Shown here one piece after another: positions 1 to 15,690 of a stretch of DNA of 64,000 bases. The translations under genes and the position numbers were made by a program. The first letter of the stretch is position 1. The number at the start of each line of letters is the position of its first letter. The notes beneath the pieces are model-generated. The model searched no databases. It was not told where the DNA came from and saw nothing but the letters and a program-made list of their open reading frames with translations. This DNA comes from Lysobacter niastensis (GTDB lineage Bacteria > Pseudomonadota > Gammaproteobacteria > Xanthomonadales > Xanthomonadaceae), in NCBI RefSeq assembly GCF_015453285.1, contig NZ_JADLZT010000004.1, positions 124,001 to 188,000 on the forward strand. Reading direction: 5' to 3'.

Positions 1-444
1 CGACTCCTGGGCGCGGGCCTGGCGATGCAGGGTGCGGTGCGTCGCCGCGACGATGTCGAGAAGGCGATGCAGGAGGGCATCATGGAAGTCGTGCCGCGCC
101 TCGAGAAGCGCACGCACTACCTGGGCACCTTCGCGAACCTGGCGACCCTGGTCGGCCTGCTCGGCACCGTGTCCGGCCTCATCGGCGCGTTCAGCGCGGT
201 GGCGACGGCCAACCCGGCGGAGAAGGCCAACTTGCTGTCGGCCAGCATCTCCGAGGCGATGAACTGTACGGCGTTCGGCCTCGGCACCGCGGTGCCGCTG
301 CTGTTCATGCACGCGTTCCTGACGTCGCGCACGCAGCACCTGGTCGAAAGCCTGGAAATGGCTGCGATCAAGTACCTCAACGTCCTGTCGCTGCGTACGA
401 GCCGCATGGCGCAGGGTGCCGTGCAGAACATCCGGGCCGCCTGA
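1..444 (+). CDS. MotA/TolQ/ExbB-family proton channel protein, 3' part
   Basis: This is the C-terminal part of an ExbB/TolQ-like inner-membrane channel subunit. The reading frame is open from the first base of the window, so the true start lies upstream. The visible part has the soluble stretch before the last two membrane helices, then a glycine-rich helix (GLLGTVSGLIGAF) and a second helix (FGLGTAVPLLFMHAF), the usual proton-channel pair. Family knowledge: five ExbB subunits around an ExbD dimer use the proton motive force to drive an envelope transducer. Two ExbD-like genes and a TonB-like gene follow directly, which supports the call. ExbB, TolQ and the Agm-type paralogue cannot be separated from this fragment. 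Confidence 0.9.
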   Translation, partial: RLLGAGLAMQGAVRRRDDVEKAMQEGIMEVVPRLEKRTHYLGTFANLATLVGLLGTVSGLIGAFSAVATANPAEKANLLSASISEAMNCTAFGLGTAVPLLFMHAFLTSRTQHLVESLEMAAIKYLNVLSLRTSRMAQGAVQNIRAA

Positions 445-466
445 GTCAGGGCACAGGAGATACGCC

Positions 467-973
467 ATGGCCCTGATGCCACGTCGCAAGCCGCCGGCCA
501 AACCGGTCGAGCTGATGCTCGTACCGATGATCGACATCTTCAGCGTGATGATCACGTTCCTGCTGATGACGGCAGTGTTCTCGCGCATCTCGATCATCCA
601 GCTCGACCTGCCCAGCGCGGCCGCCGGTGAGGCCGTCGAGCCGACCTTCCGCCTCGAAGTGATGGTGCGCAAGGAAGGCCTGGAGCTGACCAACGGGCGC
701 GACTCGATTGCCGTGTTGCCCGTGGAGAACGGGGCCTATCCGCTCAAGCAACTGACGCAGCTGGCCGCCTACCTCAAGGGCCAGCACGTCGAGGTCGACA
801 CGGCCTCGGTGCTGATGGCTCCTGACGTGCAGTACGACCACCTGGTGCAGGTGATGGATGCCATCCGCAGCACGGACCTGCCGACGGCCGAAAGCAACGG
901 CTTCACCGGTACCCCCGATGCGCATGGCCGCATCTCGATGTTCCCGAAGATCGCCGTGGGAGACGCACCATGA
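467..973 (+). CDS. ExbD/TolR-family biopolymer transport protein (first copy)
   Basis: This is a 168-residue single-pass inner-membrane protein of the ExbD/TolR family. A short basic cytoplasmic N-terminus is followed by a helix containing the family signature LVPMIDIFSVMITFLLM, whose aspartate is the expected proton-carrying residue. A periplasmic domain of about 120 residues follows. The ATG is preceded by CAGGAGA at good spacing and lies 22 bp after the ExbB stop. The gene overlaps the next ExbD by ATGA. Two consecutive ExbD genes behind one ExbB is typical of Agm/Tol-like gliding or transport motors rather than of a simple TonB system. Confidence 0.93.
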   Translation: MALMPRRKPPAKPVELMLVPMIDIFSVMITFLLMTAVFSRISIIQLDLPSAAAGEAVEPTFRLEVMVRKEGLELTNGRDSIAVLPVENGAYPLKQLTQLAAYLKGQHVEVDTASVLMAPDVQYDHLVQVMDAIRSTDLPTAESNGFTGTPDAHGRISMFPKIAVGDAP

Positions 974-1455
974 GGATGTCACTGAACCCGTTCCGCGGCG
1001 CGCGCAAGAAGCACGAGGATGCGGAGCTCAACCTGATCCCGATGATCGACATCATGTCGGTGATGGTGGCGTTCCTGCTGATCTACTCGACCGAAGTCGA
1101 GGTGGTGCAGAACGCCAAGAACGTGCAGATCCCGATTTCCACGGCCGAGGCCAAGCCTGCGGAGACCGTGGTGGTGACGATCACCAAGGACATGCTGCTG
1201 GTGCAGGGCGATGTGATCGCGACGATGGACCAGATCCGCGATCCGAATACGGCGTTGATCGAGCCATTGCGCGAATACCTGTCGCGTCCGTTGACCGCCA
1301 GGAGCGGCGCTGCGCAGCAGGCCGCGCTCGCCCATCGCGAGATCACCGTGCTGGCCGACCGCGGATTGCCCTACGAGGTGATCCGCAAGGTCATGACGAC
1401 GTGCACGGCGGCCGCCTACGACAAGTTGTCACTCGCCGTGCTCGAGCAGGGCTGA
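970..1455 (+). CDS. ExbD/TolR-family biopolymer transport protein (second copy)
   Basis: This second ExbD/TolR-like protein has 161 residues. It has a basic N-terminus and one membrane helix with the motif LNLIPMIDIMSVMVAFLLI, including the conserved aspartate, and then a periplasmic domain. Its start codon overlaps the stop of the first ExbD (ATGA), so the two are translationally coupled. The sequence is clearly diverged from the first copy, so an ExbD heterodimer in one motor is plausible; that is inference. The next gene starts 10 bp downstream. Confidence 0.93.
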   Translation: MRMSLNPFRGARKKHEDAELNLIPMIDIMSVMVAFLLIYSTEVEVVQNAKNVQIPISTAEAKPAETVVVTITKDMLLVQGDVIATMDQIRDPNTALIEPLREYLSRPLTARSGAAQQAALAHREITVLADRGLPYEVIRKVMTTCTAAAYDKLSLAVLEQG

Positions 1456-1465
1456 GGCAGAACAC

Positions 1466-2863
1466 GTGACTGATAACAACGCCATGGAACCCGAAACCAC
1501 CCCGGCCGCCCATGACCAGGCGGCGCTCGACGAGCGGACCGCGCAGGCACGCGCGCGGCTCGACGAGCTTGCGCGCGATCTCGCGGCCGTCGATGAAGAG
1601 CTCGAAGCCCTCGCCGGGGAACGCGTACGCCACCGGTTGCTCGAGCAGGCGTGCCACACGCTGGAGGAGTTGAACCGGGCGGGCGGCTCGGGCCTGTTCT
1701 GGAATGGTCTTGCAGAGAAGGACGATGGGGCCGGACACCTCGCGCGTGCGCGCGGCCGCATCGAATCCATGCACGCACGCGTCGAAGCCATCGAGACGCG
1801 CCGCAGCGACCTGATCGGAAGAATCGGCGAGCAGAACGAGGAACTGTTCCTGCTCGAGGACGAGGCCTTCGAGCACCAGGAGGCACTGGAGCGCCAGCGC
1901 AACGAATGGATCGTCGATCGCGAGCTCGAAGCGGGCCGCGTCCGCCCGCACCTCATGTTGTGGATGCGCGGCGAAGAAGACCGGCGCTCGCGCAAGGCGC
2001 TGGCCATCGCGCTGTGCGTCTGGCTGGTCATCGCGATCGTGTTCCCGTTCATCAGGATTCCGGAGCGGCCGGCGCTCGTGTCCGAGACATTGCCGGAGCG
2101 CGTGGTCACCGTGATCCCGGAGGCGAAGAAGCTGGAAAAGGCACCGCCGCCGCCGCCGGAACTCACGCGGCCGGTGGAAAAGAAGGTCGAACGCAAGCCG
2201 ACGCCGGCCCGGCCCACCGCCAAGGTCGAGCCGCGGCCCGTGCCGACGCCGCAACCGGCGAGCAAGCCGCAGGGCGTGCTGGCGTTCAAGGACGCCCTTG
2301 CAGCCGTGGATGACCTGCCCGCCGTGGCCGAGCTCGGCAAGTCAGCCAGGCTCAGTACCGATACGGGCGCGTCGCGTCCGGAACGCGCCATGCTGGCCAG
2401 CAACGCGCCGGGAAGCAGCAGTGGCATCAACCTCGCCCCGCAGAGTCGCGGCTTCGGCAATGGCCCCGGTGAGCGCGGCGCGCTCAAGGGTGTTGCACTC
2501 ACCAAGGCGACCAGCGGAATCGATGCGATCGCCGCCAAGGACTCGGCTTCCAGCGGAAGTGCGCGTCGCGGCGGACGTTCCGATGAAGAGATCCAGATCG
2601 TCTTCGATCGCCACAAGTCCGCGCTGTACCGCCTCTATCAGCGCGAGTTGCGCAATGACGCGACGTTGCAGGGCAAGGTCATCCTGCGCCTGACCATCGA
2701 GCCGGACGGCAGCGTGTCGATGGTGCAGGTGAAGTCCTCGGAGATGGATGCGCCTGGCCTGACGTCGGACATCGTGGCGCGCGTGAAGGGCTTCAACTTC
2801 GGCGCGAAGGACGTACCGGCGGTGACGATCGTGTATCCGATGAACTTCCTGCCGGCTGGCTGA
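1466..2863 (+). CDS. TonB-like energy transducer with AgmX/PglI-type C-terminal domain
   Basis: This 465-residue transducer probably links the ExbB/ExbD motor to the outer envelope. It has a charged, probably coiled-coil cytoplasmic N-terminus (residues about 15-170). One membrane helix follows (about 179-197, LAIALCVWLVIAIVF), then a Pro/Lys/Glu-rich periplasmic linker (about 220-280) like that of TonB, and a C-terminal domain (about 375-465) with the TonB/AgmX pattern VILRLTIEPDGSVSMVQV. The start is GTG 1466, with GAGGCAG upstream; an in-frame ATG at 1484 lacks a ribosome site. The reverse topology, with a large cytoplasmic N-domain, is unlike classical TonB and resembles AgmX-type proteins of gliding bacteria. 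Confidence 0.85.
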   Translation: MTDNNAMEPETTPAAHDQAALDERTAQARARLDELARDLAAVDEELEALAGERVRHRLLEQACHTLEELNRAGGSGLFWNGLAEKDDGAGHLARARGRIESMHARVEAIETRRSDLIGRIGEQNEELFLLEDEAFEHQEALERQRNEWIVDRELEAGRVRPHLMLWMRGEEDRRSRKALAIALCVWLVIAIVFPFIRIPERPALVSETLPERVVTVIPEAKKLEKAPPPPPELTRPVEKKVERKPTPARPTAKVEPRPVPTPQPASKPQGVLAFKDALAAVDDLPAVAELGKSARLSTDTGASRPERAMLASNAPGSSSGINLAPQSRGFGNGPGERGALKGVALTKATSGIDAIAAKDSASSGSARRGGRSDEEIQIVFDRHKSALYRLYQRELRNDATLQGKVILRLTIEPDGSVSMVQVKSSEMDAPGLTSDIVARVKGFNFGAKDVPAVTIVYPMNFLPAG

Positions 2864-2925
2864 CGTCCGGCAGCGGCGCAGTACAGCGCTTCAAGGCAAC
2901 ACGCTCAACGCAGCAAGAAACAAAA

Positions 2926-3011
2926 CGACAAAGGCAAAACCACCGAAAGGTGGCGACGCAAAGTCACCGGCCTGTCGGGCGCATCGCGCCCCATGGTAGC
3001 GGGACCGCCGG
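2926..3011 (+). ncRNA. c-di-GMP-I (GEMM) riboswitch aptamer
   Basis: The 5' leader of the giant DUF11 gene contains the conserved GEMM-I core in the correct order. First comes AAAGGCAAAACC, then a P2 stem CCACC-GAAA-GGTGG with its GNRA tetraloop. The joining strand GACGCAAAGTCACCGGCC follows, then a P3 arm (GGGCGCATCGCGCCC) and the 3' strand ATGGTAGCGGGACCG. These are the elements that bind one cyclic di-GMP and form the tetraloop contact in known class I aptamers. The aptamer ends about 78 bp before the gene start and is followed at once by a hairpin, so control by transcription termination or readthrough is likely. Whether c-di-GMP turns it on or off cannot be read from the sequence. Confidence 0.93.
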
Positions 3012-3017
3012 AATCAA

Positions 3018-3043
3018 CGCCCCGCGTGAGCGGGGCGTCTCCT
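3018..3043 (+). terminator. Hairpin expression platform after the riboswitch
   Basis: A perfect GC-rich hairpin, CGCCCCGC-gtga-GCGGGGCG, starts about 6 bp after the aptamer. It is followed by TCTCCTC, a poor but pyrimidine-rich tail. It sits where the terminator of a GEMM switch normally lies and ends about 45 bp before the start codon. The lack of a clean T-run makes termination efficiency uncertain. Confidence 0.65.
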
Positions 3044-3088
3044 CGGTCCATGCGTGGCTTTCGTCGTACCACGAATGGAGTGAGGTGT

Positions 3089-6000
3089 ATGGGTCTGGGC
3101 TTCGCACGCAAAACCGGGGCAGGAAAGAGCTGGATACGCATCCAGCTGTGCGCCTTCCTGGTGCTGTTCGGCATGGCGTTCGGCGCCTATGCCGAGGACT
3201 GCGTTGCGGACTTCGGCGGCGTGGTCGATGGCAACGTCGTCAACCCCGCGCCCAGCCAGCTGACCATCGATGGCAACTGCATCATCAGGAACTTCCAGCA
3301 GCCGAATCCGCTCGACACCAACATCAGTTTCTTCACCCAGCCCGGCCAGACGGACCAGCGATGGCTGGTGGTGTTCGACAACGTCGACTTCACCCAAGGC
3401 AACATCGCGTGCGATGCCACCCACGAACACAGGATCTGGTTCGTCAACGGATCGCTGCACCGGGTCAGGCCGAACTGCCAGAACTTCCTGGTGCCGGTCG
3501 AGTCGATCAACAAGCGCGGTCCAAGCTATGCCGCCGTGGGAGTGCCGTTCACCTACAGGCTGATGATTCCGGTCCTGATCGATCCGTCCACCGGCACCGT
3601 CGTGCTCGATGGCGCATCGCAGAATGACCTGCACGGGATCACGCTGTACGACAACCTCGGCGCCAACCCGGCGACGGTGTACGTCAACGGGCTCGATGAC
3701 AACGATCCGAGCACGCCGCCGGTACAACTGCCCGTCGAGATTCCCGGCACGGGCGTCGACCTCAGCCTGGTAGGAACCCCCAGCGTCCGCTGGTGCGTCG
3801 ACCTATCCTGCAACACGTTGGGCGCGGCGGTTAACCCGAACATCGTCGCCAGCCCGAACGGGCTGATCAAGTTCGAGTTCGATCCCAACTTCATCCTCCC
3901 CCAAGGCGGAAAGATCGCGATCGACGTCACGGTCGTCCTCGACGACAACTCGTCGTCGAACACGCTGGGCAAGTCCTTCGTCAACACGGCGATCTGGCAG
4001 TTCGGGCGCCTGATCAAGGGCACCTTCTACAACCCGCTGCCAGGCGAGAACGGCATTTCCAATCCAACCGTGATCGCGGGCCCGAACCTGGTCGTCAACA
4101 AGACTGGCACGGCGGTGCTCGGTGGGCCGACGCTGAACCTCGGCGAGTGGGGCGATTTCAAGGTCGACGCGGTGAACACCGGGCAGTTCGACGCGTGGAA
4201 CGTCACGCTGCTGGACCGCCTGCCGGACGGTCCCAACGGCGGCATGTGCGACATGACGCCGCAGGTGACGAGCGTCCAGCTCGGCGGCACCGCATTGACT
4301 CAGGGCGTGCATTACACGCTGTCCTACACGGGCGCGCCCACCTGCGAGCTGAGCCTCACGCTGCTCGACGCCGCGGGTCCGGTGGCGCCGGGCCAGCACC
4401 TGGTGCTCGACTACCGCACCAAGCTCGATGCCGACACCCAGAACGGCACGGCAATGACCAACGTCGCCGGCGCGACGCGCTGGTTCAACGACGACAGCGG
4501 CAACCCCGCGCGCGTCGAAGTGACACGGGTACTCACCGACGGCACAGTCGGTACGGACGACCATGAGGACGCGCATTCGCTCGCGGTGCTGCTGTCGGGC
4601 TACTTCTACGAGAAGACCGTCCGCAACGTCACCAGCGGCGATAACCCGGCGATCACCGCCGCGCCCGGTGACGTGCTGCATTACACGCTGCGGCTGCAGG
4701 CGACGGACGCCGCTTTTGCCGACGTCATGTTCCGCGACCAGCTGCCACCGGACTTCGTGCCCGGCTCGCTGGTGTTCACTTCGCTTCCGGGCGGTGCGGT
4801 CAACAACAGCAATCCGGCCACCGGCCTGATCGACATCCGCGGTCTCGACGTGCCGGTGGGCGGCGAGGTGCGCGTCGAGTTCAACGTGACGCTGCTTTCG
4901 ACGCTGACGAACGGTCACATGGTCATCAACCAGGCGCAGCTGCTCGGCAGCGCCGAGGAGTTCCTCGCGGACAGCGACGACCCGAACGTCAACGGCCAGG
5001 CCGATCCCGACCCCACGGTGGACGACGAGGACCCCACCCGCGTACGCATCGGCGCACCGCCCAGCCCGCCCACCAAGGCGCTGATCTCGCCGGCGACGGG
5101 CGAGGCAACGATCGGCGAGGAACTGGTCTATCGCATCGCCGTACCCGGTCAGCCGCGCAGCTCGCCGATGCATGACGTGCAGGTCACGGACGTGCTGAAC
5201 GCGAACCTCGAGTACGTAAGCGCCACGGTGACCGTCGGCGGCGTCGTCAACGGACCGGGCGTCGTGAACTCGAGCACCGCCTCGCAGCTGGATGTCGCGA
5301 TCGACCAGGTACCGACCGGCCAGCAGGCATTTGTCGACGTACGCGTTCGCGTTCGCAACGTGCTCGGCGCCCAGCAGGGTGTCGACGTGGGCAACACGGC
5401 GTCCTTCACTTACTCGGAAACCGACGGTGGCGCCCGGGAACCGGCGCTCACGACGAACCAGGTGTTCTTCAACATCGTCGAGCCGACGGTGACGATCGCG
5501 AAGGTGGCGGACCGCGCCACCGCAGCGGCCAACGACATCATCCGTTACACCGTCACGCTCAACGCAGCCAGCGGCACTGACGCCTCCGGCGTGTTCGATG
5601 TGTCGGTGACCGACACGCTCGGCGCGGGCCTGCAATACGCCGGCAATCCGGTCGTCACCGGTGCCGGCAACACGATCGGCGTGCCGGTCGTCACGGGCGA
5701 TGGCAGCGCCGGCGCACCGCAGACGCTGGTGTGGAGTCTCGCGGACGGCAACGCCGACATCGACATCGCCGAAGGCGCATCGATCCAGGTGTCCTACGAC
5801 GTGCGCGTACTCGGCTCGGTGCTGGCCGACCAGGACCTGACCAACACCGCGGTTGCACGCTGGACCGGCATCGACGGCGCCAATGCCGCAGAGCGCACCG
5901 GCGCAGACGGCCTCGGGCAACTCAACGACTACGTGACCGCTCCGGTCTCGACCACGGTGACCACGCCCGGCGCACGCCCGTCGAAGCAACTGGCCTCCCC

Positions 6001-9000
6001 CACGACGGGCACTGCGACGATCGGCCAGGACGTGACCTACACGATCATGGTGCCCAGCGCGCCGAGCAGCATCGCGCTCTTCGACGTGGCGGTGATCGAC
6101 GCGCTCGACGCCAATCTCGAACTGGTGGGCGTGACGGTGACCGGTGTCGCCGGTGCCACGACCGGAACCAGTACGGCCTCGCAGATGAATGTGTCGATCC
6201 CCCAGATTCCCGCGGGACAGCAGGCGACCATCGAGCTGCGAGCGCGCGTGCGCAACGTCCTGTCCGCCCAGCAGGGCGTGCAGGTCAGCAACACGGTGTC
6301 TTACGCCTACGCGACCAGCCCGGGCGGCACGACCGTGACGCCACTGGTCAGTCCCCCGGCGATGTTCACGATCGTCGAGCCGAATGTTGCCGTGGCCAAG
6401 ACCGGCGACAGGACCGGCGTCCGCGGCGGCGACGTCGTGCGATACACCGTGACCCTCACCGCGGCCGCTGATGCAACCGCTTCCGATGCGTTCGAGCTGC
6501 GGCTGGTCGATAGGCTTGCATCCGGCCTCGAATACGTTGGCAACCCGACGGTGACCGGAACCGGCAACAGCATCGCCGCGCCGCTGGTCACCGGTGACGG
6601 CAGTGCAGGGAATCCGTACGTGCTGACCTGGGGTGCCGCCGCCGGCAACGCCACCATCAACGTGGCGAAGGGCGCTTCGGTGCAGGTCAGTTACGACGTG
6701 CGCGTCAGGAATGGCGTCCCGGCGTTGACGACGCTCGCCAACAGCGTCTACGCCGACTGGACCAGCCTCGCCGGCAGCAGCGCCTTCGAGCGCAACGGCG
6801 CCGGCTGTCCGGCGGTGACGGCTCCGAACGATTACTGCGCGGGTCCCGCGAGCCACGCGGTGCTCACCGATCCGCCCAGGCTCAACTTCTCCAAGACCGT
6901 GGTCAGCGCGACGCCCGCGCATCCGGGCGACGTGGTGCGTTACCGCCTGCAGCTGACCAGCCTCAGCGACGTCAGCGCCGCCGGGATCTCGCTGGTCGAC
7001 GAACTCGATGCGCTGAACGATCCGGCGAAGTTCGTCCCGGGCACGCTGGCGATCGTCAGCGCACTGCCTGCCGGCGCGGTCAACAACAGCAATGCCAGCG
7101 GCGGTGCGAAGGGCACCGGCCGCATCGACATCGGCAACCTCACGATCGGCGCCGCAGGTTCCGGCTCCGAGACCGTGGTGGTCGAGTACACCGTGCAGCT
7201 GGTGCCGGTGATCGCCAACGGCACCGTGGTCCTGAACCAGGCTCGTGCGCAGTTCGGCAGCACGCTGCTGGCGCTCAGCGACGACCCGACCGTCAACGGC
7301 CAGGCCAACCCGGACGTCTCCGGCGATGAGGATCCGACGCGGCTGCCGATCGAGTCGGCCCCAAAACTGGTGGTCGAGAAGGTGTCGACGTACCTGGGCG
7401 CGGACCCGAACGTGCTGATGGCCGGCGACACGCTGCGCTACACGATCACGGTGCGCAACATCGGCAACGACCACGCGCACGGCGTGACGCTGCGCGACCT
7501 GGTGCCAGCCAACACCACCTACGTGGCCGGCAGCACCACGCTCAATGGCGCGCCCGTGGCCGATGGCACCAACGGCTCGCCGCTGATCAACGGCATCTCG
7601 ATCAAGTCGCCGGCCGAGCCGACCGCGGGCGTGGTGCGCGCGGACATCCCGGCCGACGCCGCGGCCAACGTCGCCACGATCACCTTCAACGTTACTGTCG
7701 GCACGAACGTGGCGGACGGCACCGTCATCGCCAACCAGGGCTTCGTGACGGGCAACAGCGAAGTGCCGTCCGACGATCCGCGCACGCCGGTCGTCAACGA
7801 CCCGACCCGCGACGTGGTGGGCAATGCGCCGTTGCTGTATGCCGAGAAGGCGGTGGTGCTGCGCATCGACGGCGGCTCGCCGGGCGTGGTCGATCCGCTC
7901 GACACGCTGCGCTACACGATCCTCATCCACAACACAGGCAAGGCGCCCGCCACGCAGGTGGTACTGCGCGACAACGTGCCCCAGCACACGAGCTGGGTCG
8001 CCAACTCGCTCACCTTGAACGGCCAGCCCGTCGGCCAGCCCGATGGCGGCGTTTCGCCGCTGATCGCCGGTATCGACGTCGGCACCCTCAATCCCGGCCA
8101 GGTGGCCGTGGTGCAGTTCGAGGTGCAGGTCAATGCCGGCACCGCCGGCGGCACGCTGATCTCGAACCAGGCAACGGCGACGAGCGCCGGACTGCCGCCG
8201 CTGCTGACCGATGGCGACGGCAATCCTTCCACCGGCCCGGAACCGACCGTGGTGGTCGTCGGCGCGGCACAGATGCTGACCATCAACAAGCAGGTCGCGG
8301 CGGTGGGCGGTGGCGCCGCGCTCCCGGGCGCCGAACTCGAGTACGTGGTCATCGTGCGCAACATCTCGACGGTGCCAGCCACGCTCGTGCGGATCGTGGA
8401 CGACCTTGCGGCGTCCGCATCTGGCCAGCTGGCCTACGTCAACGGCTCGGCCACGTTGAATGGCAGCAGCGCCGGCATCACCGTGACGGGCGCGACGATC
8501 GTCGCCGACTACTCCGCCAGTCACGGCGACCTCGCACCGGGCGCATCGGCAACGCTGCGCTTCCGCGCCACGCTTGCCTCGGGCCTCGCGTCCGGAACGC
8601 GCGTGACCAACACCGGCGTGGTGAGCTGGAACGATCCGGCGAACACCGCGAGCGCCAGCGTCGCCTTTGATGTCGGCGGCATGATCGGTGTCGGCGTGCT
8701 CAGCGGCCGCGCCTGGCATGACGCCAACTTCAACCATGCGGCAGATGCGGGCGAGCGCGTGCTCGCAGGCTGGAGCGTCCAGCTGTATCGCAACGGCCAG
8801 CTGGAGCGCACCACCACCACGGACGCCAATGGCGATTGGCAGATCGCGGGCGTGGCACCGAACAGCGCCTCGTCCGACGCGCTGGAGATGCGCTTCACCG
8901 CGCCCGGTGCGACCGCAAGCACGGCCAAGCTCGGCTATGCGCACTCGGTCTTCGGCAACGACCTGCAGCGCATCCATGCCATCGCCGTGCAGCCGGGCAG

Positions 9001-10555
9001 CAACCTGCTGAACCTGAACCTGCCGATCGAGCCGAACGGCCTGATCTACGAGGCGATGAACCGCACGGTCATCACCGGTGCGCGTCTGCGTCTGCTCGAT
9101 GCGGGCGGTGTTGCGGCTCTGCCTGCGAGCTGCTTCGCCGATCCGGCGCAGCAGGGCCAGGTCACGCAGCAGGGCGGTTACTACCGCTTCGATCTCAACT
9201 TCGCCGACGCGGCGTGTCCGTCCGGCGGCAGCTATGTGATCGAGGTGGTTCCGCCGTCGGCGGACTATCTGGCCGGAGCGTCGGGCCTGATTCCGCCGGC
9301 CACGAACACGAACACCGCGGCGTTCTCCGTGCCTGGCTGCCCGGCCAGTGCAAGCGATGCCGTGCCGGGCACGACCGAGCGCTGCGAGGTGCAGGTGTCG
9401 GAGCTTGCACCGCCGACCTCGGTGCCGGCGCGCTCGACCGGCACCACGTACTACCTGCACCTGCGCGTCGACGACACGTCCATGCCCGGCAGCAGCCAGG
9501 TTTTCAACAACCACATCCCGCTCGACCTCGATCTCGGCGAAGCGCTGGCCATCAGCAAGACCACGCCGATGAAGAACGTCGTGCGCGGCCAGCTGGTGCC
9601 CTACACGATCACGGTGCGCAACCTCTCGGGCTTGCCGCTGCGCGATGTGCGTGCCGTCGACTCCTACCCGGCGGGCTTCCGCTACGTGCCGGGTTCGGCG
9701 CGCATCGACAACGTGGCCGCGGAGCCAGAGCAGAACGGCCGCCAGCTCACTTGGAACGGCCTCGAGTTCGGCACCACCGACCAGCACGTGATCACGCTGC
9801 TGCTCGCCGTCGGTGCAGGCGTGGGCGAGGGCGAGTTCGTGAACCGCGCACGCGTCTGGAACGGGCTCTCCGATCGCCCGCTGTCTGGCGAAGCCACTGC
9901 CACCGTGCGCGTGGTGCCGGATCCGACCTTCGACTGCACCGACATCATCGGCAAGGTGTTCGATGACGCCAACCGCAACGGCCACCAGGACCAGGGCGAA
10001 GGCGGCATCGGCGGCGTGCGCCTGGTGAGTGCGCGTGGTCTCGCGGCGACGACCGACGCGAACGGCCGCTACCACCTGACGTGCGCCGTGGTGCCGAACG
10101 AAGACCGCGGCAGCAACTTCGTGCTGAAGCTGGACGACCGGACGCTGCCCAGCGGCTACCGTCCGTCCACCAAGCAGACGGTGATCGCGCGCGCCACGCG
10201 CGGCAAGGCGCTGAGCATCAACTTCGGTGCTTCGGTGTTCCGCGTGGTCAGCCTCGATCTCAGCGACGAGGTGTTCGAGCGTGGCGGCACCGGGCTGCGC
10301 CGCCACTGGCAGCCGCGCATGCAGACGCTGCTCGATGAACTGGTGAAGGAGCCGGCGGTACTGCGCCTGTCCTACCTGGCGGACCTCGAGGATCCGCAGC
10401 TGGTCGAAGCGCGCCTGGAAGCGATCAAGCAGCAGGTCACGCAGGCCTGGCCGTCGGCCGGCGCCAGCTATCCGCTCACCGTGGAGCAACAAACCTTCTG
10501 GCGACGCGGCGCGCCAGTGCAACGCCCTGCGGGCAACGAGGGGGCGAGCAAGTGA
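3089..10555 (+). CDS. Giant secreted DUF11-repeat surface protein with SdrD B-like domains
   Basis: This protein of about 2,488 residues starts at ATG 3089, behind GGAGTGAGG. A Sec signal peptide with a likely cut after AYA (residue 35) fits export. A unique N-terminal region (about 36-330) is followed by about eleven DUF11/isopeptide-type Ig modules (starts near 334, 504, 659, 797, 962, 1096, 1260, 1424, 1579, 1727 and 2152). Two SdrD B-like modules are near 1867 and 2286, with the Asp/Asn-rich pattern DANFNHAADAGE or DANRNGHQDQGE that suggests calcium binding. The last 150 residues are charged and alpha/beta-like. Modules 659-961 and 962-1259 look like a tandem duplication. There is no LPXTG or autotransporter barrel. 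The next gene overlaps its stop (GTGA), and that OmpA/barrel protein may anchor it. An adhesive surface fibre is the best guess. Confidence 0.88.
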   Translation: MGLGFARKTGAGKSWIRIQLCAFLVLFGMAFGAYAEDCVADFGGVVDGNVVNPAPSQLTIDGNCIIRNFQQPNPLDTNISFFTQPGQTDQRWLVVFDNVDFTQGNIACDATHEHRIWFVNGSLHRVRPNCQNFLVPVESINKRGPSYAAVGVPFTYRLMIPVLIDPSTGTVVLDGASQNDLHGITLYDNLGANPATVYVNGLDDNDPSTPPVQLPVEIPGTGVDLSLVGTPSVRWCVDLSCNTLGAAVNPNIVASPNGLIKFEFDPNFILPQGGKIAIDVTVVLDDNSSSNTLGKSFVNTAIWQFGRLIKGTFYNPLPGENGISNPTVIAGPNLVVNKTGTAVLGGPTLNLGEWGDFKVDAVNTGQFDAWNVTLLDRLPDGPNGGMCDMTPQVTSVQLGGTALTQGVHYTLSYTGAPTCELSLTLLDAAGPVAPGQHLVLDYRTKLDADTQNGTAMTNVAGATRWFNDDSGNPARVEVTRVLTDGTVGTDDHEDAHSLAVLLSGYFYEKTVRNVTSGDNPAITAAPGDVLHYTLRLQATDAAFADVMFRDQLPPDFVPGSLVFTSLPGGAVNNSNPATGLIDIRGLDVPVGGEVRVEFNVTLLSTLTNGHMVINQAQLLGSAEEFLADSDDPNVNGQADPDPTVDDEDPTRVRIGAPPSPPTKALISPATGEATIGEELVYRIAVPGQPRSSPMHDVQVTDVLNANLEYVSATVTVGGVVNGPGVVNSSTASQLDVAIDQVPTGQQAFVDVRVRVRNVLGAQQGVDVGNTASFTYSETDGGAREPALTTNQVFFNIVEPTVTIAKVADRATAAANDIIRYTVTLNAASGTDASGVFDVSVTDTLGAGLQYAGNPVVTGAGNTIGVPVVTGDGSAGAPQTLVWSLADGNADIDIAEGASIQVSYDVRVLGSVLADQDLTNTAVARWTGIDGANAAERTGADGLGQLNDYVTAPVSTTVTTPGARPSKQLASPTTGTATIGQDVTYTIMVPSAPSSIALFDVAVIDALDANLELVGVTVTGVAGATTGTSTASQMNVSIPQIPAGQQATIELRARVRNVLSAQQGVQVSNTVSYAYATSPGGTTVTPLVSPPAMFTIVEPNVAVAKTGDRTGVRGGDVVRYTVTLTAAADATASDAFELRLVDRLASGLEYVGNPTVTGTGNSIAAPLVTGDGSAGNPYVLTWGAAAGNATINVAKGASVQVSYDVRVRNGVPALTTLANSVYADWTSLAGSSAFERNGAGCPAVTAPNDYCAGPASHAVLTDPPRLNFSKTVVSATPAHPGDVVRYRLQLTSLSDVSAAGISLVDELDALNDPAKFVPGTLAIVSALPAGAVNNSNASGGAKGTGRIDIGNLTIGAAGSGSETVVVEYTVQLVPVIANGTVVLNQARAQFGSTLLALSDDPTVNGQANPDVSGDEDPTRLPIESAPKLVVEKVSTYLGADPNVLMAGDTLRYTITVRNIGNDHAHGVTLRDLVPANTTYVAGSTTLNGAPVADGTNGSPLINGISIKSPAEPTAGVVRADIPADAAANVATITFNVTVGTNVADGTVIANQGFVTGNSEVPSDDPRTPVVNDPTRDVVGNAPLLYAEKAVVLRIDGGSPGVVDPLDTLRYTILIHNTGKAPATQVVLRDNVPQHTSWVANSLTLNGQPVGQPDGGVSPLIAGIDVGTLNPGQVAVVQFEVQVNAGTAGGTLISNQATATSAGLPPLLTDGDGNPSTGPEPTVVVVGAAQMLTINKQVAAVGGGAALPGAELEYVVIVRNISTVPATLVRIVDDLAASASGQLAYVNGSATLNGSSAGITVTGATIVADYSASHGDLAPGASATLRFRATLASGLASGTRVTNTGVVSWNDPANTASASVAFDVGGMIGVGVLSGRAWHDANFNHAADAGERVLAGWSVQLYRNGQLERTTTTDANGDWQIAGVAPNSASSDALEMRFTAPGATASTAKLGYAHSVFGNDLQRIHAIAVQPGSNLLNLNLPIEPNGLIYEAMNRTVITGARLRLLDAGGVAALPASCFADPAQQGQVTQQGGYYRFDLNFADAACPSGGSYVIEVVPPSADYLAGASGLIPPATNTNTAAFSVPGCPASASDAVPGTTERCEVQVSELAPPTSVPARSTGTTYYLHLRVDDTSMPGSSQVFNNHIPLDLDLGEALAISKTTPMKNVVRGQLVPYTITVRNLSGLPLRDVRAVDSYPAGFRYVPGSARIDNVAAEPEQNGRQLTWNGLEFGTTDQHVITLLLAVGAGVGEGEFVNRARVWNGLSDRPLSGEATATVRVVPDPTFDCTDIIGKVFDDANRNGHQDQGEGGIGGVRLVSARGLAATTDANGRYHLTCAVVPNEDRGSNFVLKLDDRTLPSGYRPSTKQTVIARATRGKALSINFGASVFRVVSLDLSDEVFERGGTGLRRHWQPRMQTLLDELVKEPAVLRLSYLADLEDPQLVEARLEAIKQQVTQAWPSAGASYPLTVEQQTFWRRGAPVQRPAGNEGASK

Positions 10556-13500
10556 AGACCAGGCCGAAGAAAACCATGTCGACGAAAAGCATTCGACTGC
10601 CGCTGCTGGCCCTGGGCCTGATGACCGCGACGGCGCTGGCACAGACGGCCAGCGAGCCGGTCGCGAATGTCCAGGGTACGAACGACCTCGCCACCAAGGA
10701 CGTGCCGATGGGCGCGTCCGTCGAGCGCCACCTGCCCGGTGACCAGGAGTTCCATCCGCTCGCGCGCGATCCGAGCGTGCTGCAGAACGTGGGTGGCGAC
10801 CGCGTGGAGAAGCAGCAGGTCGACGGGCAGGTAATGGAGACCGTCAAGCTGAGCGGCATCATCGCGCCGCTGCATTTCGATTCGGGTGCGATCAGGATCC
10901 GAGACGAGGACATCGAGAAGATCCGGCGCGCGATGGAGTCGGTGCGCGGCAAGGCCAACGTGCGCCTGCACCTGATCGGCCATGCCGACAACCAGCGCCT
11001 GTCGCCCGAACTGACCGCGCGCTATGGCGACAACCAGGGCCTGTCGCGCGAACGTGCCGGCGAAGTGGCGGAACTGCTGCAGCGGGCGCTGACACTGCCG
11101 CCGGAGGCGATCGCCTACGAGGGCATGGGCGATACCCGGCCGGTGGCGACGAATGCGACCGATGCAGGCCGCGGACGTAACCGTCGCGTGGAAGTGGAAG
11201 TCTGGTACGACGAACCCCGTGCCGCCACGACCGAGAAGGATGTACTGGTCAAGGAAGAGCTTCGGCAGATCAAGGTCTGCCGCGTGCAGGAGCTCTGCCT
11301 GATGCAGTTCAAGGAAGGCAATGCCCGCCGCACCCGGGTGAACAACCTGGTGTCCGCACTGCACTACGGCGAGGAAGGCGTGGAGGTCACGCCGGCGTTC
11401 GTCGAGCAGGTGCGCAAGGCGTTCGCCAACCTGGAAGGCAAGCAGAACGTGACCGCCCGATTCGTCGGCTACGCCGATGACATGGCCTTGTCGGATCGCA
11501 ACGCGCGCATCTACGGTGATGCGGTCGCTTTGTCGAAGGCGCGCGCGCATCGCGCTGCCCTCGCGGTACAGGAGGCACTGCGCTTGCCTGCCGCTGCCGT
11601 GCAGAGCGACGGCCGCGGCGCCACGACGTTCCTCGCACCTAACGACACGGCGCAGGGGCGCGCGCTCAACCGCCGCATCGAAGTGCAGTTCTGGTACGAC
11701 GACCGGCTGCAGGAACTGCCCGAAGGGCCGCAGATGTGCCCGGCCGACGAGGGCAAGGAGATCGTCACCCGCATCCACCAGCCGTCGGGAGGCCCGATTC
11801 CGATGCTGATGCTCGAGAAGGGCGAGGCCATCGTCCCCGATGGCTTCACCGACCGCCTGCGCAGTGCACTGGACGAAGTCAAGGATCGCGACAACGCGCG
11901 TCTGCGCTTCATCGGCTACACCGGCAACGAGCGCCTCGACCGCCGCACCACCGCCGTGTACGAGGACGACATCGGACTGTCCGCGGCGCGTGCCGGCCGC
12001 GCGATGGCATCCATCCGCAGCCAGATGCAGCTCGCTTCGGAGCAGGTCGAGCACGAGGGCCGCGGTTTCGTGCAGTCCGCCGACCTGCCGAACGAGGGCT
12101 TCACTCAGGGCACGGATTCCTACATCGAAGTGCAGGTGGTGTACGACGAGGCCGTGGTGCGCGACGACCTGGAGGGCGTGGACATCACGCGGCTCACCCG
12201 CGAGCTGGCGCCGGCCAACGCTTTCGGCCTCAACTCCATGCACATCTCGGTGGACGGCCAGCCCCTCGATGATCCGGGCCGCAGCTCCGCCGACGTGCAG
12301 CGATGCACCGACGTGGCACTGGACCAGGCCGGTATCCGCTTCCAGTTCGACGGTTTGACCGCCGAGCCGCGCCTGTCGGTGTCGGCCTCGCCGCAGGTGG
12401 CGGTGGCAGGCGAGCCGGTGCGCTTCCGGATGTACTCGAACTACACCGGCTTCATCCAGCGCGCCGAGGTGCGCATCCACGAGAAGGATCAGTCCACGCA
12501 GGCCACTCCGCTGGCCATCGTGGCGCTGGACGCCAACGGCGAGGGCGAGGGCGAGTGGCAGCCTGGCATCGGCGACATTCCGGCCGCCGGCCGCGAACTG
12601 AAGTACGTGCTGCGCGCCTACGACGAACAGGGCCGGTTCGACGAGACCAACCTGCGTCCGTTGTGGCTGGTCAACGCCAACGGCGATGGCAGCGCCGCGG
12701 AAATTCCGGCGACTGCACCTGACCAGGGCGCACCGCCGCTGGCCGGCTATGGCGAGAGCAGCATCGCGCGCCGCAACATCCGCATCGGTGCCAATACCGT
12801 CGCGGTGCGTGGCGGCGGCATTCCGGACGGACACACCGTGTGGGTGGCGGGCCGGCCGGTGCCAGTCGACGCCAACGGCGACTTCATCTCCGAGGAGATC
12901 CTTCCCGACGGCCTGCACACCGTGGAGGTGGCGGTGCTCGACGCGGAGGGCAACGGCCAGCTTTACCTGCGCGACCTGGAACTCCGTCAGCGTGACCGCT
13001 TCTTCGTCGGCATCGCCGACGTGACCGCGGTCGACGATCGCACCACCGGCCCGGCCGACATGCTGGAAGGCGAGAACACGGCCTTCGAACGCAGCTCGTC
13101 GTTCTATGGCCGCCTGGCGTTCTTCGGCACCGAGAAGTTCGGCAATGGCTGGCGACTGACCGCCAGTGCCGACACGCGCGAGGGTCCGGTGGAGGACATC
13201 TTCGGCAACCTTCTCGACAAGGCCCCGGACGCGCTGTTCCGCCGCATCGACCCCGACTACCACTATCCGACCTTCGGCGATGACGGCATCGTCGAGGAGA
13301 TGGCGCCGACGCTGGGCAAGTTCTACGTGCGTGCCGAGCGTGGCGACGACTACGCGATGTGGGGCAACTTCCTCACCGACTATGCGGACAACGAACTGGC
13401 CCAGGTCGACCGCGGGCTTTACGGTGCCAACGCGGAGTGGAAGGCCGATGCGACCACGGCGTTCGGCGAACGCCGCGCCAGCGTCGGTGCCTTCGCCGCC

Positions 13501-15690
13501 GAGCCCGGCACGATCGCGGGCCGCGACGAGTTCCGTGGCACCGGTGGTTCGCTGTTCTACCTGCGCAACCAGGACATTCTCAGCGGCTCCGAGCGCCTGC
13601 GCATCGAAATGCGCGACAAGGACTCGCAACTGGTCACCGGTACCGTGGACCTGCGCCCGGGCCTGGATTACGACGTCGACTACCTGCAGGGCCGCATCCT
13701 GCTTTCCGAGCCGCTGTCGTCCACCGGCAGCGACAACATGCTGGTGCGCAGCGGCGGACTCTCCGGAGACGAGGCCTGGCTGGTCGCGCGCTACGAGTAC
13801 GCGCCGGGATTCGATGAGATCGACACGCTGACGTCCGGCGGCCAGGCCCATGTCTGGATCAACGACCATGTCGGCCTCGGTCTTACCGGCAGCCACAGCA
13901 GCGGTGATGTCGAGGACAACAGCATGCTCGGCGCGGACCTCACGCTCCGCAAGAGCGCCGACACCTGGCTGAAGCTGCAGAGCGGCCGCACCAAGGGTCT
14001 CGCGTCGCATTCGCTGTTCTCGAACGACGGCGGTTTCGAGTTCACCGGTACCGACCCGACGGGATTCAACGACGCGGAGGCCAGCGGCTATCGCGCCGAC
14101 CTCAGCGCGGGCATCGGCGACCTCCTCAAGAACGGCAAGGGCCGCGTCACCCTGTATACGCAGGCACAGGATGCCGGTTACTCGGCGCCTGGCCTGGCGA
14201 CGCTGACCGACCGCACGTACTACGGCGGCACGCTGGACCTGCCGATCGGCGACAAGTTCAGCGTCATCGGCAAGGCGGACCATCGGGAGCAGAGTGCAGG
14301 CCTCACGCTCGAAGCGGCGGAGGTGAACGTCAAGTACCAGATGAACGATCGCTGGAACGTGGCTACCGGCGTGCGCAGCGACAAGCGCGACGACCAGCGC
14401 GCGGTGGTGCCGCTGACCCAGGAGCAGGGCGAGCGCACGGATGCGGTCGTGCACGTCGGTTACGACTCCACGAAGAAATGGAATGCGTGGGGCTTCGCCC
14501 AGCAGACCCTGTCGAAGAACGGCGATCGCCAGGACAACGGCAGGCTCGGCGCAGGTGCGGCGATGCGCATCGGCGAGAAGCTGCGCGTGGAGGCGGAGGC
14601 CTCGGCCGGCGACCTCGGCCCGGGCGGACGGCTGGGAACCAGCTACCTGGTATCGGACAAGACGAGCCTCTACCTGAACTACGCACTGGAGAACGAACGC
14701 GGCGACATCCTCGACGGCACCAACCTGAGCGGCACGCGCGGCAGCCTGGTCGGTGGCGTGAAGCGTCGCCTGTCGGACAGCAGCAGCGTCTATGCCGAAG
14801 AGCGCTACCAGGACGTCAATGAGGCCAGAGGCCTGACTCATGCCGCGGGCATGTCGCTGAACCTTGGCGACCGCTGGACGCTGGGCGCGAATGCCGAACT
14901 GGGCACCTTGCAGGACAGCGAGACCGCTGCCGAGACCGAACGTCGCGCGGGCGGCGTGCGCGTAGCCTACACCTTCGGTCCGACGCGGATCTCGAGCGGC
15001 ATCGAATACCGTGCCGATGACGCCGAGCGTCCCGACGCCACGCTCGTGGAACGCACGACCTGGCTGTTCCGCAACAACTTCAAATACCAGATGTCGGACG
15101 ACTGGCGTCTGGTCGGCAAGCTCGACCACTCGCTGAGCGAGAGTTCGCAGGGCCAGTTCTACGACGGTGAGTTCACCGAGGGCGTGGTGGGCTTCGGCTA
15201 CCGCCCGGTCCTCGACAATCGCCTGAACGCACTGGCCAAGTACACCTACTTCTACAACGTGCCCACCACCGACCAGGTGACGCTCACCGGTACGGCGGCG
15301 CAGTTCATCCAGAAGAGCCATATCGCCTCGCTGGATGCCACCTACGAACTGACCCCGTCGTGGTCGGTGGGTGGCAAGTACGCATACCGCCTGGGTTCGG
15401 TGAGCCTGGATCGCGAGACGCCCGAGTTCTTCGACAACCGCGCGCAGCTGGTGATCCTTCGTACCGACCTGCGCCTGTTTGAGAAATGGGAAGGGCTGCT
15501 GGAGGCTCGCAGGCTGCACCTGCCGGATCTGGATGAGTCCCGCAGCGGCATGCTGCTCGGCGTGTACCGCTACTTCGGCGACAACGTGAAGGCCGGCGTG
15601 GGCTACAACTTCACCGATTTCTCGGAGAACCTGACCGACCTGAGCTACCGCCATCGCGGCGTGTTCGTGAACGTCGTCGGCGCGATGTAG
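10552..15690 (+). CDS. Large outer-membrane protein: three OmpA-like domains plus beta-barrel
   Basis: This is 1,712 residues from GTG 10552, which overlaps the previous stop and has a strong GAGGGGGCGAG site; ATG 10576 is an alternative. The signal peptide ends near ATALA-QT. Three OmpA-C-like domains follow at about 95-225, 245-385 and 400-535, each with the pattern IGHAD or VGYADD/IGYTGN and a closing RRxEVxxWYDD-like strand. An Ig-like, extracellular-type region (about 600-830) comes next. From about 840 to the end the sequence alternates as in outer-membrane beta-strands, with many aromatic girdle residues. Family knowledge: OmpA-C domains bind peptidoglycan. The presumed role is to anchor or export the giant DUF11 protein and possibly to contact the AgmX-like transducer. 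Confidence 0.85.
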   Translation: MKTRPKKTMSTKSIRLPLLALGLMTATALAQTASEPVANVQGTNDLATKDVPMGASVERHLPGDQEFHPLARDPSVLQNVGGDRVEKQQVDGQVMETVKLSGIIAPLHFDSGAIRIRDEDIEKIRRAMESVRGKANVRLHLIGHADNQRLSPELTARYGDNQGLSRERAGEVAELLQRALTLPPEAIAYEGMGDTRPVATNATDAGRGRNRRVEVEVWYDEPRAATTEKDVLVKEELRQIKVCRVQELCLMQFKEGNARRTRVNNLVSALHYGEEGVEVTPAFVEQVRKAFANLEGKQNVTARFVGYADDMALSDRNARIYGDAVALSKARAHRAALAVQEALRLPAAAVQSDGRGATTFLAPNDTAQGRALNRRIEVQFWYDDRLQELPEGPQMCPADEGKEIVTRIHQPSGGPIPMLMLEKGEAIVPDGFTDRLRSALDEVKDRDNARLRFIGYTGNERLDRRTTAVYEDDIGLSAARAGRAMASIRSQMQLASEQVEHEGRGFVQSADLPNEGFTQGTDSYIEVQVVYDEAVVRDDLEGVDITRLTRELAPANAFGLNSMHISVDGQPLDDPGRSSADVQRCTDVALDQAGIRFQFDGLTAEPRLSVSASPQVAVAGEPVRFRMYSNYTGFIQRAEVRIHEKDQSTQATPLAIVALDANGEGEGEWQPGIGDIPAAGRELKYVLRAYDEQGRFDETNLRPLWLVNANGDGSAAEIPATAPDQGAPPLAGYGESSIARRNIRIGANTVAVRGGGIPDGHTVWVAGRPVPVDANGDFISEEILPDGLHTVEVAVLDAEGNGQLYLRDLELRQRDRFFVGIADVTAVDDRTTGPADMLEGENTAFERSSSFYGRLAFFGTEKFGNGWRLTASADTREGPVEDIFGNLLDKAPDALFRRIDPDYHYPTFGDDGIVEEMAPTLGKFYVRAERGDDYAMWGNFLTDYADNELAQVDRGLYGANAEWKADATTAFGERRASVGAFAAEPGTIAGRDEFRGTGGSLFYLRNQDILSGSERLRIEMRDKDSQLVTGTVDLRPGLDYDVDYLQGRILLSEPLSSTGSDNMLVRSGGLSGDEAWLVARYEYAPGFDEIDTLTSGGQAHVWINDHVGLGLTGSHSSGDVEDNSMLGADLTLRKSADTWLKLQSGRTKGLASHSLFSNDGGFEFTGTDPTGFNDAEASGYRADLSAGIGDLLKNGKGRVTLYTQAQDAGYSAPGLATLTDRTYYGGTLDLPIGDKFSVIGKADHREQSAGLTLEAAEVNVKYQMNDRWNVATGVRSDKRDDQRAVVPLTQEQGERTDAVVHVGYDSTKKWNAWGFAQQTLSKNGDRQDNGRLGAGAAMRIGEKLRVEAEASAGDLGPGGRLGTSYLVSDKTSLYLNYALENERGDILDGTNLSGTRGSLVGGVKRRLSDSSSVYAEERYQDVNEARGLTHAAGMSLNLGDRWTLGANAELGTLQDSETAAETERRAGGVRVAYTFGPTRISSGIEYRADDAERPDATLVERTTWLFRNNFKYQMSDDWRLVGKLDHSLSESSQGQFYDGEFTEGVVGFGYRPVLDNRLNALAKYTYFYNVPTTDQVTLTGTAAQFIQKSHIASLDATYELTPSWSVGGKYAYRLGSVSLDRETPEFFDNRAQLVILRTDLRLFEKWEGLLEARRLHLPDLDESRSGMLLGVYRYFGDNVKAGVGYNFTDFSENLTDLSYRHRGVFVNVVGAM

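Follow-up and report, generated by a model that had tools for sequence, protein, structure and literature searches.

The window analysed here, a stretch of 64,000 nucleotides from Lysobacter niastensis (contig NZ_JADLZT010000004.1, forward-strand positions 124,001 to 188,000), contains a cyclic di-GMP (c-di-GMP) riboswitch aptamer that separates two groups of genes on the same strand (Table 1). Upstream lie genes for an ExbB/TolQ-type proton channel protein, two ExbD/TolR-like proteins and an AgmX/PglI C-terminal domain protein (P0003); downstream lie the genes for a giant secreted protein with DUF11 and isopeptide-type domains (P0001) and for an outer-membrane protein with OmpA-like domains and a predicted barrel (P0002). 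As the original prediction had proposed, the aptamer stands in the leader of the DUF11 gene: it matches the full RF01051 model (1-87) at 71.5 bits (E 4.9e-12; gathering score 35) and, with a full-length covariance-model score above that cut-off, belongs to the c-di-GMP-I (GEMM-I) class. It is the sole Rfam match reported at the gathering level in the window, a weaker overlapping match of the same clan being omitted, and it begins 59 nt past the end of the P0003 gene and ends 76 nt before the ATG of the DUF11/isopeptide gene.

At the selectivity position, which we take to be the equivalent of Vc2 G20, the window aptamer has a G, and a G at this position makes c-di-GMP the preferred ligand over cyclic AMP-GMP (cAMP-GMP). 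The same G is found in 30 of 30 strong aptamers among the 79 distinct loci that represent the best 80 of 108 relatives of the OmpA/barrel gene, a selection that favours window-like loci; two weak copies could not be placed. The wording 'selectivity factor' occurs in the accessible part of PMC9262584. GEMM copies with an A there, in L014, L017, L018 and L019, lie inside what by eye appear to be inverted repeats. Just 3' of the window aptamer stands a G+C hairpin, also pointed out in the original prediction; because it is without a T-run and has no plus-strand terminator match, we rejected it as an intrinsic terminator. A scan of positions 2601-3200 returned two terminator-like sites, both on the minus strand and none on the plus strand, and no sigma-70 promoter. 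Set against 200 shuffled versions, the leader has the better fold in 198 cases (z -2.42).

The downstream pair was described correctly at the outset as a DUF11 protein of 2,488 residues whose stop overlaps the start of an OmpA-type protein of 1,712 residues, the stop and the GTG start being shared as GTGA; the computed masses, 257.4 kDa and 187.4 kDa, sum to 445 kDa, near the figure of about 460 kDa given before. P0001 scores 197.3 bits against Pfam DUF11 (cut-off 24.6), 252.1 bits against NCBIfam TIGR01451 (cut-off 24; nine stretches) and 150.1 bits against NCBIfam TIGR04226, RrgB_K2N_iso_D2 (cut-off 30; four RrgB-type isopeptide stretches), and so joins DUF11-type and RrgB_K2N_iso_D2 domains, both above cut-off, in the manner of a DUF11/isopeptide fimbrial protein. 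Its C-terminus was modelled as immunoglobulin (Ig)/isopeptide modules like those of pilins and MSCRAMM adhesins, with SdrD-B type modules in addition; the CLIPPER domain of 9ifr, which comes from a fibrillar adhesin of a Gram-negative bacterium, matches it with a template-modelling (TM) score of 0.73 by target, and the Foldseek list for the region is filled by Ig-like and other domains. The C-terminal tail is conserved and has a modelled beta-alpha-beta-alpha-beta topology; for a reading of this tail as OmpA-like, profile comparison with the three OmpA-like domains of P0002 gives a probability of 0.4-4.5%.

P0002 scores 70.8 bits against PF00691 (OmpA; cut-off 27.2) and has two further OmpA-like repeats, the probabilities by hhalign being 100% for the first domain with the second and 99.7% for either of these with the third. 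Peptidoglycan binding by OmpA-like domains depends on an Asp and an Arg, and these are present in the first domain (GHAD and RERAG) and the second (GYADD and KARAH); the third is without the Asp. P0002 thus carries putative anchoring domains of the OmpA kind. Its C-terminal half is predicted to form a large beta-barrel, for which about 42 strands of at least six residues were counted by hand in a model of moderate confidence (predicted local distance difference test score 68, predicted TM score 0.56), a number that is indicative only because the nearest folds, generic outer-membrane barrels of varied type (among the matches listed, TonB-dependent receptors, ushers, LptD, porins and VDAC), match with large root-mean-square deviations. 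No Pfam family was found for the barrel at cut-offs, and the sequences of solved structures gave one non-significant match; segments of P0002 have weak Ig-like and glucodextranase-B Pfam matches. A POTRA or ShlB/FhaC-type family was found neither in P0002 nor among the 24 Pfam families listed (38 barrel rows, E<=1), and membership in two-partner secretion (TpsB/ShlB), with its POTRA plus ShlB/FhaC barrel, was rejected.

Table 1. Features of the riboswitch and the surrounding genes; positions are those of the window.
Feature	Positions	Strand	Evidence
ExbB/TolQ/AglR-like proton channel protein, C-terminal part (gene starts before the window)	1..444	+	PF01618, 94.5 bits on the whole gene, read in L183
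ExbD/TolR-like protein 1	461..973	+	PF02472, 59.1 bits
ExbD/TolR-like protein 2	970..1455	+	PF02472, 61.5 bits
AgmX/PglI C-terminal domain protein, GltG-like (P0003, 465 aa)	1466..2863	+	NF033768, 64.6 bits, cut-off 40
c-di-GMP-I (GEMM-I) aptamer, G at selectivity position	2923..3012	+	RF01051, 71.5 bits
Aptamer core and P3 5' strand, pairing with 3054-3066 (13 pairs, one bulge)	2954..2967	+	constrained fold
G+C hairpin 3' of the aptamer, without T-run	3017..3038	+	sequence, scan, fold
Hairpin over the purine-rich ribosome-binding region 3077-3085 (3' arm)	3041..3085	+	minimum-energy fold
CGGUCC, complementary to GGACCG 3002-3007 in the P3 3' strand	3044..3049	+	sequence, fold
Candidate anti-aptamer strand GUGGCUUUCGUCG	3054..3066	+	constrained fold
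Giant DUF11/isopeptide-type secreted protein (P0001, 2,488 aa), ATG 3089	3089..10555	+	DUF11, TIGR01451, TIGR04226
OmpA-like x3 and outer-membrane barrel protein (P0002, 1,712 aa), GTG 10552	10552..15690	+	PF00691, hhalign, model
Three tandem OmpA-like domains, P0002 residues 100-222, 258-386, 405-534	10849..12153	+	hhalign
Predicted large beta-barrel region, P0002 residues 850-1710	13099..15681	+	moderate-confidence model

The upstream genes have the composition expected of an Agl/Glt motor core, with one TolQ/ExbB and two TolR/ExbD proteins clustered with a TonB-C (AgmX/PglI) protein. Further TPR proteins lie ahead of ExbB/TolQ, in a part of the cluster that falls outside the window and was read in L183; one TPR protein of the cluster has a weak match to PorW/SprE of type IX secretion (46.3 bits against a cut-off of 250). 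In its make-up, the cluster resembles the Myxococcus AglRQS/GltG motor core.

Co-occurrence of the motor and fibre genes

Among 148 relatives, the full-length OmpA/barrel protein is present in four (G000, the genome of the window, G008, G016 and G049), long DUF11 matches are found in the same four, and AgmX is found in exactly these four (Fisher 5e-8). In all four family modules a GEMM lies directly ahead of the DUF11 gene, and the aptamers are closely similar. The module occurs in two of the 12 listed genomes of the same genus (G000 to G011), so that its distribution is patchy. Farther afield, whole-genome searches of 50 pair-bearing genomes (with L106, L114, L130, L147, L154, L162 and L179 left out) found an AgmX relative at E<=1e-8 in every one: 44 have it in one full-length piece, four in two adjoining pieces, one cut by a contig end (G195) and one as a short paralogue only (G155). 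In an evenly drawn sample of 369 genomes of the class, 13 of the 14 with full-length AgmX also have the OmpA/barrel gene (11 full, two partial), the exception being a genome that is 79% complete (G512); taken the other way round, a full or partial OmpA-type gene is present in 14, and 13 of these have full-length AgmX, the exception being G409 (Fisher 6e-22). Full-length AgmX is lacking in all six sampled genomes that matched through an OmpA-less relative of the barrel.

The linkage is also physical. AgmX lies directly upstream of the DUF11 gene in 26 of the 39 loci with at least 1 kb of upstream DNA, and in the eight class-sample genomes with both genes on one contig the end of AgmX and the start of the barrel gene are between 5.2 kb (G362) and 15.8 kb (G333) apart: the two ends are fixed, and the stretch that they enclose, which is the fibre gene in those that were read, differs in length. 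The motor and the fibre/barrel pair behave as one module. The original prediction spoke of a single fibre with its likely anchor, and the DUF11/OmpA pair is indeed real and recurs in distant bacteria; the description missed the upstream motor cluster and is too narrow, because that cluster co-occurs with the pair almost without exception. The pair would seem to be the surface portion of a bigger envelope machine, every part of which is of a known kind.

Distant relatives of the pair, at about 33% identity (L035-L052, L184-L188), are common in the family and are without AgmX; they match the barrel part without the OmpA-like domains, plus the DUF11 C-terminus, and the five stretches L184-L188 yielded no strong GEMM. 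A short AgmX paralogue, covering roughly residues 150-230 to 464, occurs without the full-length form in 48 of the 369 class-sample genomes. One metagenome-assembled genome (G150; C1:1724000-1743900, L196, and L108) has an AgmX-GEMM-DUF11 locus that shows no barrel gene within the 20 kb that were read, and a DUF11-barrel pair that lies almost 1 Mb from this locus.

Distribution and placement of the riboswitch

A covariance model (R1) built from 18 of the 30 aptamer loci places a strong GEMM ahead of the DUF11 gene, within its leader, at 25 of 40 evaluable loci; the other 39 of the 79 are not evaluable because the gene runs off the available DNA or has no upstream open reading frame (ORF). The count would be 26 of 40 if corrected for L119, which was scored as negative and whose genome has a GEMM 74 nt past AgmX; starts are perhaps misassigned in L106, L144, L148 and L149, and frames are perhaps broken in L108 and L114. 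By hand count, at least 18 of the 50 searched genomes have a GEMM 42-249 nt past AgmX on the same strand, and among the matches listed a GEMM leads the DUF11 gene in five Geobacterales-type genomes. At least 23 of the 50 genomes (again a hand count), holding 268 GEMM matches in all, thus have one at the module, for which the binomial chance under a rough model of one gene in 3,500 is about 3e-49. On a tree of 37 barrel sequences (the 40 evaluable loci less L108, L114, L154, L162 and L175, with the window and L092 added and L119 labelled as having a GEMM), presence of the GEMM needs six changes, with gain and loss not told apart, against 10.4 in shuffles, none of 500 of which were as low. GEMMs are therefore frequent, and grouped, in lineages close to the window as well as in Geobacterales, and other lineages lack them: they are not universal, and among the matches listed none was seen at the module in any of the four Alcanivorax genomes searched. 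Weak, degenerate-looking GEMM remnants lie ahead of the DUF11 gene in L167 (4889-4952, 27.3 bits) and L114 (4635-4698, 20.2 bits), as if the switch were decaying there.

The same genes recur in a permuted order. In Geotalea, Geobacter, Citrifermentans and Malonomonas one or more GEMMs and terminators are followed by DUF11, OmpA/barrel, TPRs, ExbB, ExbD, ExbD and AgmX (for the downstream part the reading covers L172, L193, L195 and L198), and in Geomonas GEMMs also lead, AgmX following on the same strand some 24 kb farther on. With the permuted arrangement the switch can use termination to gate the entire operon; in the order of the gammaproteobacteria it stands between motor and fibre. The aptamer, the module, its conservation and its permutation are all shown by these computations. 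A reading of the Geobacterales copies as cAMP-GMP switches (A20) was rejected, the 10 strong copies in L131, L139, L155, L164 and L172 having G. Citrifermentans bremense (L164:1-1200) has four GEMMs before one operon among the matches listed, the fourth beyond the locus; by eye, terminator-like hairpins follow the GEMMs, and a small ORF (about 554-716) precedes the last copy.

Possible mode of action of the switch

In the remainder of the linker, past the G+C hairpin, folding predicts a second hairpin whose 3' arm takes in the purine-rich ribosome-binding region and whose 5' arm and loop contain the putative anti-aptamer strands. This hairpin, at 3041-3085, is a better candidate for the expression platform than that at 3017-3038. 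In the mechanism proposed here for the window and its gammaproteobacterial relatives, c-di-GMP would stabilise the aptamer and the free linker would then form the hairpin over the ribosome-binding region, which would lower synthesis of the fibre and, via the GTGA overlap, of the barrel protein too; without ligand the linker would invade the aptamer and open the ribosome site.

Comparison of 23 leaders of the gamma type (L177 left out as a double of G016; several starts chosen by eye) is consistent with such a design. Complementarity between linker and aptamer core has a mean z of -1.42, with 8 of 23 leaders at p<=0.05, against -0.13 and 1 of 23 for a control segment; for a longer core the values are -1.19 and 5 of 23, against -0.06 and 2 of 23 for a reversed-core control. 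Between L154 and L122 the pairing changes on both sides (GUUACC/GGUAAC in one, GUCACC/GGUGAC in the other). Forcing the aptamer left the ribosome site less accessible than did the anti-aptamer pairing in 15 of 23 leaders and more accessible in two, with no difference in the other six, and the mean difference in opening between the states was 0.20, against 0.07 in shuffles (Wilcoxon p 0.007). All of these leader p-values are optimistic because the leaders are related.

From folding, then, we infer that the switch of the window most likely works as a translational OFF switch, a direction that these models favour by a modest degree and that the original prediction had not specified. GEMM-I switches act both ways, the accessible part of PMC9262584 giving Vc2 as translational OFF, Cd1 as OFF and pilM as ON, and the window shares with the RF01051 switch Vc2 a full model match and the selectivity G; its translational platform without a terminator would be a further point of comparison. 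An ON switch within the same module, by which c-di-GMP would raise fibre production as expected for biofilm genes, would have pilM as a precedent and would suit the Geobacterales leaders, in which antiterminator and anti-aptamer states are both possible by folding and an aptamer plus antiterminator state is thus permitted. It is to be taken seriously, yet it is less well supported as an account of the window: the aptamer state makes the ribosome site less accessible in the majority of gamma leaders, and the mean accessibility difference exceeds that of shuffles.

Function of the module and its alternatives

The best overall explanation, to which we give a probability of roughly 0.58, is a c-di-GMP-I riboswitch placed inside a conserved gene cluster, probably one operon, that acts as a translational OFF switch on the fibre genes while the motor acts on the fibre. 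The upstream TPR proteins, ExbB/TolQ, the two ExbD/TolR proteins and AgmX/PglI would form an envelope complex that resembles the Agl/Glt core and is driven by protons; the downstream genes would supply a giant isopeptide/DUF11 surface fibre and its OmpA/barrel partner in the outer membrane, and this pair would most likely be the surface part on which the motor works, a role that we infer from their co-occurrence.

Several results weigh against this explanation. The GltG and GltJ models match P0003 more weakly than NF033768 and below their cut-offs (GltG 42.7 bits against 650), and the GltE model scores 35.2 bits against a cut-off of 225, so that the GltG plus GltE pair by which an Agl/Glt core would be assigned at equivalog level is far below threshold. 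A GEMM clearly adjoins AgmX in just 2 of 13 class-sample modules by hand count (G000 and G362; G531, whose genome is fragmented, gives no clear placement), which indicates that control by c-di-GMP is not intrinsic to the module. On the side of the mechanism, the P3 3' strand shows no excess of complementarity (mean z -0.19, 2 of 23 leaders), the energy gap shows no overall difference from shuffles (p 0.58), and the leaders that predict the opposite direction (2 of 23) or no difference (6 of 23) must be counted here as well. Taken by itself, the anti-aptamer match of the window does not reach significance (p 0.28; 0.077 for the longer core). In the constrained folds and their comparison with shuffles, the first 30 nt of the linker were excluded from the partner search for the window only. 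Folded without constraint, the leader of the window leaves its ribosome site closed (0.14 unpaired), for which reason the predicted swing is small, from 0.12 to 0.28.

How far the parts can be matched to known systems bears on what the machine might do. A 'Group B core complex' of aglRQS with gltC, D, E and G, clustered in non-Deltaproteobacteria and in Geobacter, has been described (Luciano 2011, PMC3169522), and its linked conserved genes in gammaproteobacteria were taken, in the portion of that paper at hand, to suggest a functional complex of unknown role; the core was later treated as a standalone and possibly basal transport machinery whose cargo was left open (Wartel 2013, PMC3858216, from the part available). 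The cluster of the window shares with it one TolQ, two TolR, a TonB-like protein of the AgmX/GltG type and TPR proteins, a likeness that spans gammaproteobacteria and Geobacter, and differs in its link with a giant DUF11 fibre and an OmpA/barrel protein, to which a riboswitch is often added. In the available text of PMC3169522 neither 'DUF11' nor 'riboswitch' occurs and 'OmpA' occurs twice, for GltA; within the accessible parts of PMC3169522, PMC3858216, PMC9262584, PMC8835794, PMC10599522 and PMC11224092 nothing links GEMM to this gene pair or motor. The DUF11/OmpA-barrel pair was not found as a GEMM target in open-licence PubMed Central papers, and the assembly of parts and the switch position were not found in print in a search lacking most subscription journals. 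Relative to known c-di-GMP-I switches, that of the window sits between cistrons and separates the motor genes from the fibre genes.

With fibrillar adhesins and isopeptide pilins (SdrD, BcpA, RrgB, 9ifr), P0001 shares DUF11, SdrD-B and RrgB-type domains, a likeness founded on sequence and fold matches; it differs from them as a very long Gram-negative protein with a conserved tail and a fixed OmpA/barrel partner. In Bacteroidetes, type IX secretion and SprB gliding combine a proton-driven motor, a giant surface adhesin and a very large barrel. The module is alike in outline, by analogy only: the PorW/SprE equivalog score given above is far below its cut-off, and the fold matches listed for the barrel do not include a SprA-type barrel. 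It is tempting to go further and imagine an as yet undescribed proteobacterial surface machine in which an Agl/Glt-type proton motor moves or exports a giant isopeptide-stiffened fibre through an oversized OmpA-anchored barrel, the intercistronic switch uncouples the supply of fibre from the motor, c-di-GMP thereby switching the surface part on or off with the motor left in place, and the stacked GEMM-terminators of Geobacterales gate the operon; we regard this fuller picture as tentative and somewhat doubtful.

If the OmpA/barrel protein were instead the exporter of the DUF11 protein, with the motor powering export, the module would be a secretion system and not a moving fibre. This would suit the constancy of the 3' partner, the great size of its predicted barrel, a cargo gene that varies between fixed ends and the weak PorW/SprE-like match of the TPR protein; the listed Pfam families include no POTRA or ShlB/FhaC-type, and three OmpA-like domains fit anchoring, so that we consider it rather unlikely. 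Less probable again is a stand-alone adhesin and anchor under c-di-GMP control to which ExbB, ExbD and AgmX are merely neighbours. The C-terminus of P0001 does model like pilins and MSCRAMM adhesins, and distant OmpA-less relatives of the pair do exist in the family without AgmX, but AgmX co-occurs near-perfectly with the full-length pair and the linkage is kept under permuted gene order. That the aptamer is a relic without regulatory effect, as the six presence changes on the tree and the remnants in L167 and L114 might suggest, is very improbable, closely similar aptamers being kept in all four family modules and the selectivity G in every strong copy.

On the explanation that we prefer, in which the motor acts on the fibre, the motor core of unknown role outside gliding bacteria is now supplied with candidate surface partners and a small-molecule signal, and its near-constant partners together with c-di-GMP make that role testable. 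The riboswitch between the cistrons separates the motor from what it may act on, and the occurrence of the same module with one translational-looking switch or with up to four stacked GEMM copies amounts to a natural experiment. The genome of the window has 19 GGDEF matches. It also has a second GEMM on another contig (C2:18560-18639; L002, L097; 58.4 bits), which, from the translations, adjoins an apparently antisense thiS-like gene and lies ahead of a GDSL/autotransporter-like gene.

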